Shown here: piece after piece, positions 25,383 through 39,638 of the stretch | Position numbering within the stretch: the stretch's first letter is position 1 | Layout: each line of letters opens with the position of its first letter | Source of the DNA: Orenia metallireducens | GTDB taxonomy: Bacteria > Bacillota > Halanaerobiia > Halobacteroidales > Halobacteroidaceae | Assembly (NCBI RefSeq): GCF_003001995.1 | Contig: NZ_PVNB01000006.1 | Coordinates: 62,001-126,000 of the forward strand | Reading direction: 5' to 3' | DNA: 64,000 nucleotides | The notes under the pieces: generated by a model | The model's input: the letters and a program-made list of their open reading frames with translations, nothing else | What the model was told of the DNA's origin: nothing | Databases searched by the model: none | Made by a program: the position numbers and the translations under genes

Positions 25383-27680
25383 TTAACAACCTAAAATTGC
25401 TCCTGTCAATTTTGGTACTCTCAGCTTTACTCTTCCATCTATAAGACTATATTCTCTATTATTCAATAAACCTCTAAGCTTCTTAGAGTTAGCCAAATTA
25501 TAACTACTTAAATTTACTTCAACCTCTGCTTCCTCTTCTTTACAATTTAAGATAATAAGCAGTTCTTCTTGACCATAGCTCTTAATATAAGCCCAAATTC
25601 CCCTTTGATCATCAACAATTAAATCATCTCTCTCCCCTAAACTTAAGGCTAAATGATTATTTCTAGCACTGCATAAGCTTTGATAGAAATTATACAGTTC
25701 TTTATCCTGCTCTTCTCCCCATAACATAAAGTTGCGGGAATGATCATAGACAATTGCTCCTGTATTATCATCTCTACAGTCATTTACTTGGGATAAGCCT
25801 ACCTCTGTCCCATAATAGATAAACTGGGTTCCTGCTAGGGTAAACTGGCAGGTTGCTGCTAACTTTAATCTGCTTTTATCATCCTCTGCTTCCCATAAGA
25901 ACCGACCCATATCATGGTTATCTAAAAATCTACATAAGATAAATTCATCCTCATAAAAACCATCTAAATAATCTAAATCATCTTTAAATTCTGAAACACT
26001 TTTACTACCATAAATAAATAGCTCTCTAAAGCTCCAAACCAATGAAAAATCAAAACAGCCATCTAACTCTCCAGCAAACCTATTTGTAATTCCAGGTCCT
26101 TCCCAAACCTCGCCAAATACATAAGCCTCAGGCTTAATCTCTTTAATAGCCATCCTAAACTCAGTCCAGAAATCATGGGACAAACCATAAGCATAATCCA
26201 TTCTTAATCCATCGAAGTCATAAATTTTTAGCCATTTCAATAAATGTTCATAAATAGTATACTTCCTTGCTGCAGGATAATCATTATTAATATAAGGTAA
26301 CTCCTTTAATCCAAAAAAACCATCATATTGATTAGGCCAATTAGTAAATTTAAACCAATTATAATATTTACTATCTTTATCCTGTTGAGCCTCAATAAAG
26401 AAAGGATGCTTATTAGAACAATGATTTGGCACAAAATCCAAGATAATCTTCAAACCCTTACTATGAGCTCTATCAATCAACTTGTGAAGTAACTTATCAT
26501 CACCAAAATGCTTATCAATCTCCAAAAAATCTGTTATATGATAGCCATGGTAGTATAATCCCTCATAGAGTGGTGACAGCCAGATAGCCGTTGCTCCTAA
26601 CTTCTTAATATAATCCAACTTATCAATTATTCCTTGCAAATCTCCACCTTGATAGCTAAATGGATCAAGACCTAAATCATAGTTATTAGTTGGATCACCA
26701 TCACAGAAACGATCAATAATAATATGATAGACTATTGCTTCCTTAGCCCATTGGGGAGTCTGATATTTCTGTACTAGATAAGAAAAGTTACTTGCCTCTG
26801 CTAGAGTATCATTATTATCTGCAAAATATGATATTCCCTTCTGACTATTATAGCCCTCAATAATGTATCTAACCCTTATACCCTCTTTTTGGGCATCAAT
26901 CTTGGCTTCCCACCAATCAATCAATTCTTCGTCAGCTGGATTTACTTCTGTATAGCTTCTCTTTAACTCTAAGCAAGTTCCATTAATCTCCTTCCCCTTC
27001 TTACCTTGAGGTAAAGTCCCATCAATAGTATAGTATAAGTACACCTTATCTATTAAGCCACTCTTAGTACTAACCCTAATAGAGACCTTATCATCTATAG
27101 TTGGTAGATTGGGGACATAATTATGATTATGAAATAATTTACTATTAAAAACCGTTTTCTCACTGATGTCAGCAAAAGACCTCATATTGTAGGTATGATA
27201 AGGACTCTTTTTTTTACTCTCATCCCATAATGAAACTGAAGAAATTAAATTATTTAAGTACCTTTCTTTTGACTTATCATCGATTTCTTGATTGATTAAA
27301 TATCTTTTCAACTCATCTTTACTAGGAATCTCTGCTAACTCCTGCTCAGTATAAGTATCATAAACCTTAGTCGCTAGACCATTAGTCATTACCAATATAG
27401 GAGCAGGAGGTGAAAGTAGACGGGAGTAGGATATCATCTTCATCTTTACTCCTTGATTCAACTCTTCATTTCCAGCCCTAACAGAGATAACTAACCCCGG
27501 TAATCCCTCAACTCTAACAAGTACTTCTGCATTAATATAAACCTTCCGTCTACCTTTTTCTACCAACAGTTTTGCATCAGATTCTATATCTGCTGTTTGG
27601 TAGCCAAGTTTATACAAATTAGGAAATAGATATTTCTCTTTAACTCTCTTTCTATACTTTAACCTTATAAGCTTGTTCAT
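25383..27680 (-). CDS. GH13 alpha-amylase family enzyme (cyclomaltodextrinase/neopullulanase-like) with HsdR-N-like N-terminus
   Basis: A 765-residue cytoplasmic protein without signal peptide. The catalytic barrel (about 335-690) has all four GH13 regions: DFVPNH, GLRMDYAYG (nucleophile Asp), GEVWEGP (acid Glu) and FLDNHDM. A beta-sandwich N-domain with YYTIDGTLPQG precedes it (about 165-300), so it should cleave internalised maltodextrins. Residues about 10-125 are unusual: VYINAEVLVRVEGLPGLVIS, MISYSRLLSPPAPILVMTNG and KVYDTYTEQEL resemble the type I restriction HsdR N-terminal (HSDR_N_2) domain, with its usual E-x-K replaced. A C-terminal beta domain ends the protein. ATG 27680 follows AAAGGATGG. 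Confidence 0.85.
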   Translation of the reverse strand: MNKLIRLKYRKRVKEKYLFPNLYKLGYQTADIESDAKLLVEKGRRKVYINAEVLVRVEGLPGLVISVRAGNEELNQGVKMKMISYSRLLSPPAPILVMTNGLATKVYDTYTEQELAEIPSKDELKRYLINQEIDDKSKERYLNNLISSVSLWDESKKKSPYHTYNMRSFADISEKTVFNSKLFHNHNYVPNLPTIDDKVSIRVSTKSGLIDKVYLYYTIDGTLPQGKKGKEINGTCLELKRSYTEVNPADEELIDWWEAKIDAQKEGIRVRYIIEGYNSQKGISYFADNNDTLAEASNFSYLVQKYQTPQWAKEAIVYHIIIDRFCDGDPTNNYDLGLDPFSYQGGDLQGIIDKLDYIKKLGATAIWLSPLYEGLYYHGYHITDFLEIDKHFGDDKLLHKLIDRAHSKGLKIILDFVPNHCSNKHPFFIEAQQDKDSKYYNWFKFTNWPNQYDGFFGLKELPYINNDYPAARKYTIYEHLLKWLKIYDFDGLRMDYAYGLSHDFWTEFRMAIKEIKPEAYVFGEVWEGPGITNRFAGELDGCFDFSLVWSFRELFIYGSKSVSEFKDDLDYLDGFYEDEFILCRFLDNHDMGRFLWEAEDDKSRLKLAATCQFTLAGTQFIYYGTEVGLSQVNDCRDDNTGAIVYDHSRNFMLWGEEQDKELYNFYQSLCSARNNHLALSLGERDDLIVDDQRGIWAYIKSYGQEELLIILNCKEEEAEVEVNLSSYNLANSKKLRGLLNNREYSLIDGRVKLRVPKLTGAILGC

Positions 27681-28052
27681 CTAAACCATCCTTTACTAAA
27701 AGTTTTCCCAAAAAACCTATATACAAAACAAAAACCCCGATTAATTATTAAGAGAATTCTCTTAGTAATTAACCGGGGTTCTTTTAAAAAGATTGCCCTC
27801 AAATTTTTGTATTTAACCTAATTATATAATTTATCATTAATTATATCAATGTTTTGCTATAAAAAATCGAAAAAATTATTTCATTTTAAAATGATAAGTT
27901 ATCATTTCCAAGAGACTAGATAGTAATATAAAATTAAGGAACAATTTAATATTAACTACTATTAGCTATTTTTACTAACATCTTTAATCTAACTTTAACA
28001 GATACTATAAATAAGCCTCAATAAATACCTAATATCAAGGAGGATAGTTAAT
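27681..28052. other. Divergent gap with long hairpin and small palindromes
   Basis: It lies between the amylase gene and a rightward micro-gene. It contains the hairpin at 27733-27780, CATTTTAAAATG (27882-27893) and AAATGATAA-G-TTATCATTT (27889-27907); the last two could be an operator for either gene. I see nothing else. Confidence 0.4.
27733..27780 (-). terminator. Long hairpin with T-run upstream of the amylase gene
   Basis: AACCCCG and CGGGGTT bound an almost complete stem running through TTAATTA and TAAGAGAATTCTCTTA at the apex. On the minus strand GGGGTT is followed by TTTGTTTTG. It lies some 50 bases before the amylase start, so it would end or attenuate transcripts reading into that gene. 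Confidence 0.75.
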
Positions 28053-39370: not shown

Positions 39371-39382
39371 GACTTTACTCCT

Positions 39383-39486
39383 CTTATCTCTCAACATCAC
39401 ATGGATATTGCTGGAATTAGCACCTTCCTTTTAAAAAGGGGGTTGCTGGGTTTCATCGGGCCAGTCCCTCCACCACTCTAGATAAG
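39383..39486 (-). ncRNA. SAM-I (S-box) riboswitch aptamer
   Basis: The minus strand has the S-box order: closing stem CTTATC...GATAAG, AGAG...GGTGGAGGGACTGGCCC, GATGAAACCCAGCAACC (kink-turn and SAM core), AAGGTGCTAATTCCAGC, and the terminal stem. It is linked to metA and an intrinsic terminator, the standard arrangement. Confidence 0.96.
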
Positions 39487-39638
39487 AATTATATTCTTTT
39501 TCTACAATAGTAACATATATTATCAACTGTGTCAATTCTTTATTAATCAGCTGATTGGATTCTATAATTAAATTTCTTATCAAATATTTTATTACACTTT
39601 AGAGATAATTATTACATCATAAATAAGCAAAAACAAAA

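Follow-up and report, generated by a model that had tools for sequence, protein, structure and literature searches.

The window, a stretch of 64,000 nucleotides from the salt-loving bacterium Orenia metallireducens, contains on the minus strand at 25383-27680 a single open reading frame of 765 amino acids, with its ATG at 27680, its stop at 25383 and no internal stops. Its predicted product consists of an HSDR_N_2-like domain, a linker, an Ig-like N-domain, a GH13 barrel and a C-terminal beta domain, and this full length is kept by each of six genes found in five genomes.

The GH13 part is intact. The catalytic barrel (residues 306-675; 25656-26765, minus strand) was matched by PF00128 at 204.7 bits (E 4e-60, above the cut-off) in a Pfam search of the window protein, and carries the motifs GLRMDYA, FGEVW and FLDNHD, with catalytic D495, E524 and D590 invariant in the alignment of all six orthologues. 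The C-terminal beta domain (residues 676-765; 25383-25655, minus strand) is of the maltogenic amylase type, as PF16657 scores 29.2 bits, above its cut-off. The Ig-like N-domain of the amylase, Alpha-amylase_N or CBM34-like (residues 186-305; 26766-27125, minus strand), was assigned from a weak PF02903 score (15.3 bits versus a cut-off of 23 in the window protein, and E ≤ 0.1 in four of the six fused proteins), beta strands in a full-length model and the alignment of a solved alpha-amylase, 8jnx, which covers residues 180-736 at 425 bits. Maltogenic amylase, cyclomaltodextrinase and neopullulanase structures (1sma, 1ea9 and 1j0h), as well as 8jnx, share the barrel, catalytic triad, C-terminal domain and apparently an Ig-like N-domain with the fused protein, but their aligned stretches hold no counterpart of its first ~125 residues.

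The degenerate HSDR_N_2 domain, a PD-(D/E)XK nuclease fold, occupies residues 1-125 (27306-27680, minus strand). Between it and the amylase lie a helix and a variable linker (residues 126-185; 27126-27305, minus strand), poorly predicted, the pLDDT of the full-length model being low over 146-194. The helix, at 135-153 in the AlphaFold model, and an SLWDE motif are conserved and come after the nuclease-like domain, as seen in the orthologue alignment and the predicted model. No hydrophobic signal was found at the N terminus of the fused amylase, unlike in its closest homologue in genome G005. That homologue, of 817 amino acids (L036:6095-8548), is 43% identical from residue 174 on, has a hydrophobic signal-like N terminus and a different N-terminal region, lacks HSDR_N_2 and lies at another locus. 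The fused protein is best explained by its sequence as a cytosolic GH13 maltodextrin/alpha-glucan hydrolase.

Upstream of the gene, a promoter-like TTGATA-17-TATAAT (27821-27849, minus strand) agrees with the consensus at 11 of 12 positions, although shuffled sequence yields promoter-like sites about as often as this region does, which makes the match weak by itself. Downstream of it and ahead of the start codon, a leader element (27724-27803, minus strand) was recognized by conservation, pattern scan and folding. It comprises a conserved TTTGAGGGCAATC motif and then a long terminator-like hairpin (AACCCCGGTTAATTA...TAATTAATCGGGGTTTTT) ending in T5. The element is conserved in the window genome (G000), G001, G002 and copy a of G004; the pattern of motif plus 5′ arm occurs once per genome in those four, always at this leader, and in 0 of 57 other genomes. 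The leader fold has a z of -4.95. Given the structure, 97.9% of cells are paired in the four sequences and three pairs are changed on both sides, which is modest support, as shuffles average 1.4 and 34 of 500 reach three. No Rfam family matches the element, for which a transcription attenuator and a small RNA are both possible. A leader peptide with a rare start was also considered by eye in this 5′ leader and set aside, its lengths differing between species. Elsewhere in the window, a SAM riboswitch (RF00162, 96.5 bits) lies at 39381-39488 on the minus strand.

The preliminary description, made from the window alone, had seen an HsdR-N-like domain at the N terminus, proposed an HMM search and a structure prediction, and held that another fold would be fatal. 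HSDR_N_2 (PF13588) matches residues 23-118 at 21.0 bits (E 3.7e-4) when the whole window protein is searched, and residues 1-158 alone raise the score to 24.2 bits (E 3.7e-5); the window copy thus ranges over 21.0-24.4 bits, slightly under the Pfam cut-off of 25. Two orthologues exceed it, that of G002 at 37.8 bits (E 4.7e-9) and the second copy of G004 at 29.9 bits, and each of the six fused proteins gives a match. When a profile built from the six fused N-domains was aligned by hhalign with one built from seven ordinary HSDR_N_2 domains, the probability was 97% (E 8.7e-11).

Because a profile search of PDB sequences with the N-domain gave zero matches, a fold comparison was needed. AlphaFold, run on residues 1-154 from six sequences, gave a model with mean pLDDT of 88 and pTM of 0.83, whose elements are H3-24, E32-42, E45-57, E60-67, H76-88, E95-99 and E104-108, followed by the helix mentioned above. 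With this model, the sole Foldseek match under E 0.001 was 3h1t, an HsdR nuclease domain fragment (E 7.3e-5). The same structure ranked top in VIA-align (Z 13.6, rmsd 3.2, 122 residues), ahead of BsaXI (10.9), BpuSI (9.8) and then more restriction nucleases. The full-length AlphaFold run on six sequences predicted the barrel poorly (pLDDT 62) and was not used for domain packing. Sequence family, helix and strand order, the LGY, (S)Y and NG motifs and the predicted fold are all alike in the window domain and the HsdR nuclease domains (3h1t, 2w00). By homology and modeled fold, residues ~1-125 are thus a type I restriction HsdR-N domain, and the original assignment holds.

The partner is different, however, as HsdR nuclease domains are attached to a helicase or methylase, and the window domain to a glycosidase. 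The fused chain lacks a helicase motor domain, its remainder being GH13, and neither hsdM nor hsdS is among the neighboring genes; the protein is not a type I HsdR subunit.

The joining in frame, and whether relatives keep it, on which the preliminary description had also made its claim depend, were examined in other genomes, and here too the claim survived. Full-length fused orthologues are 82% identical to the window protein in G001, 64% in G002, 57% in Halanaerobacter jeridensis (G003), and 59% and 55-56% in the two copies of Halonatronum saccharophilum (G004). Altogether, six genes of five genomes in three genera carry the fusion; Halanaerobacter and Halonatronum we take to belong to the family Halobacteroidaceae. 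In five of the six cases the gene adjoins rimO-pgsA-pgpA, and copy b of G004 sits elsewhere; small membrane or LysM-like genes are further neighbors in the window. That second G004 gene (L034:6451-8748), also full length, lies between a sigma-54-like gene, which it follows, and NRPS-like genes, and the leader element is absent from it. Near the fused locus of Halanaerobacter, L035:302-3472 encodes a large P-loop regulator, MalT/LuxR-like by eye.

Two genes merged as one by assembly or gene calling could in principle look like this, and the amylase part is indeed preceded by an internal methionine, M166. Such an artefact is extremely improbable, since the same uninterrupted frame is present in six genes of five independent genomes, five of them syntenic; by these sequences, an assembly error is excluded. 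Three further Halobacteroidaceae genomes (G005-G007) lack the N-domain, and profile searches with it, covering 151 relatives and 398 phylum genomes, gave no further amylase fusion. A scan of GTDB species with two short peptide patterns, blind to distant cases, found the domain only in Halonatronum (two loci) and Halanaerobacter. The fusion is best explained as having arisen in an ancestor shared by some of the Halobacteroidaceae.

Among the additional profile matches, some of the weaker ones may be chance, and the stronger ones that were read (G359, G286 and G027) are restriction/defence-type proteins. The best match outside the fused proteins in the 398 phylum genomes was G359 L073:7809-10280 (823 amino acids, 64.8 bits, E 2e-17), an HSDR_N plus N6-methylase protein that is the closest unfused homologue found; the match spans model positions 5-135 and includes the IGSRK and EIPSK segments. 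It was followed by an ATPase-type protein of G286 (E 1.9e-8) and then a methylase-type protein of G027, where the methylase and ATPase labels of all three are our reading of the sequences rather than Pfam assignments. The G286 protein (L074:1568-3883) probably serves in defence; its chain begins with an HSDR_N_2-like domain with D...E-x-K, a relative of the window domain. Because the nearest unfused relatives are of restriction/defence type, the N-domain most likely derives from such proteins, as far as sequence similarity can tell.

The active site was compared in an alignment of the fused proteins with six restriction-type homologues. The canonical helix-1 Glu, Asp and (D/E)-x-K read R10, E/D52, S/A/I66 and R68 in the fused proteins, with R10 and R68 invariant, and the window copy has R10, E52, S66 and R68. 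At the position of R10, five of the six restriction-type homologues have Glu, and the G286 protein is poorly aligned there. Thus, HsdR domains present Glu, Glu and Lys where the fused proteins present Arg, Ser/Ala/Ile and Arg, and Asp/Glu52 is the sole canonical residue kept in all six copies, preceded by an invariant GRRK (43-46). The loss of E-x-K suspected from the window sequence is real in all six copies, and the damage goes beyond what was then described, as the helix-1 Glu has also been replaced. The nuclease active site is, as read from the alignment, broken in every copy, and the domain presumably no longer cuts DNA.

Active-site residues are known to migrate within the PD-(D/E)XK superfamily, and every one of the six proteins has acidic residues at positions 15, 52 and 72. 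A rearranged site with carboxylates moved to E15, E52 or E72 would leave an active nuclease and a two-function enzyme. We regard this as very unlikely, because Lys is replaced by Arg in 6/6, the motif Glu by Ser, Ala or Ile and the helix-1 Glu by Arg, whereas the restriction-type protein of G359, the closest homologue, keeps Asp and D-x-K. Asp and D/E-x-K are retained in the G286 protein as well.

If the domain does not cut, it could be a neutral leftover of an accidental fusion that serves no purpose today. Loss of the active site would fit this, and so would divergence faster than that of the barrel in some pairs (39% versus 71% identity between G000 and G004a). For G000 and G001, the one pair relied on for dN/dS as the remaining pairs are near dS saturation, Nei-Gojobori values (dS 0.65) were 0.13 for the N-domain, 0.07 for the barrel, 0.23 for the linker, 0.21 for the Ig-like domain and 0.27 for the C-terminal domain. 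By these rates the N-domain is under purifying selection, more strongly constrained than the linker, Ig-like and C-terminal parts. In addition, 25 of residues 1-120 are invariant between genera, and both Halonatronum copies retain the domain. In each of the six fused proteins, residues 1-125 have a pI of 9.0-9.8, as opposed to a barrel pI of 4.6-4.9. Because the domain is under purifying selection and is basic on an acidic barrel, a decaying relic is unlikely, and we hold a role-free leftover to be improbable. Of the relic suggested earlier, the folded, nuclease-derived domain stands but the decaying leftover does not, given the dN/dS of 0.13 in G000/G001.

Because the N-domain persisted while three genera diverged, although its cutting site was dismantled, it probably does a new, non-cutting job. 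We tentatively favor that a retired restriction nuclease domain now serves a cytosolic amylase as a module for anion binding or assembly, a proposal built on the alignments and the model. In this proposal, the nuclease domain of a restriction/defence-type protein would have been joined to a GH13 hydrolase in the ancestor proposed above, and its metal-binding carboxylates would have been replaced by arginines R10 and R68, beside the conserved basic GRRK. The former nuclease cleft could then bind an anion metal-free, the ligand possibly being nucleic acid, a nucleotide or a phosphosugar, and the binding may tether or regulate the attached amylase. Several observations weigh against it. Charge enrichment at invariant sites is marginal (Lys/Arg make up 8 of the 25 invariant residues and acidic residues 1; compared with the variable positions, Fisher p 0.056, suggestive only), the basic charge could instead pack against the acidic barrel, the N-domain is less conserved than the barrel in the pair mentioned above, and in the gene neighborhood of the fused loci no link to DNA or signaling was found. 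A narrower version, in which a metal-free sensor of a nucleotide, signaling nucleotide or nucleic acid directly controls the glucan-degrading enzyme, is rather unlikely.

The main rival to the anion-binding module is a purely structural role, in which a folded cap without ligand stabilizes the amylase or shapes its oligomeric assembly. GH13 maltodextrinases are known to dimerise via an N-terminal domain. The N-domain here is well folded in the model and under purifying selection, the conserved helix and SLWDE motif come next in the chain, and a basic domain could dock on the acidic barrel. On the other hand, this leaves unexplained why the helix-1 Glu and catalytic Lys both gave way to an invariant Arg, and the Ig-like N-domain, which mediates dimerization in maltogenic amylases, seems still present. 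Such a role is possible, though we consider it doubtful. The position in the chain would also suit a module that binds the carbohydrate substrate of the amylase, as the closest G005 homologue has its signal-like peptide and another N-terminal stretch there. However, residues 1-125 contain zero Trp and are strongly basic, and the invariant Y27, Y85 and Y107 look structural, being found in many restriction homologues too; carbohydrate binding is accordingly hard to credit.

Both kinds of domain are known and common, and their pairing was found nowhere else than in these six sequences of one bacterial family. No text pairing HSDR_N_2 with an amylase was found in a non-exhaustive literature search, in line with the initial remark that no such fusion was known, and neither amylases nor glycosidases are mentioned in a 2007 survey of the nuclease superfamily (PMC1913061).

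For annotation, the comparison of orthologues recovers a domain narrowly missed by single-sequence Pfam searches. A nuclease fold that has lost catalysis, yet is conserved across genera as part of a metabolic enzyme, makes a clean and small test case for the reuse of defence domains, approachable with one purified protein. Should the domain prove to be an anion sensor, carbohydrate breakdown would be coupled to nucleic-acid or stress state within one polypeptide.
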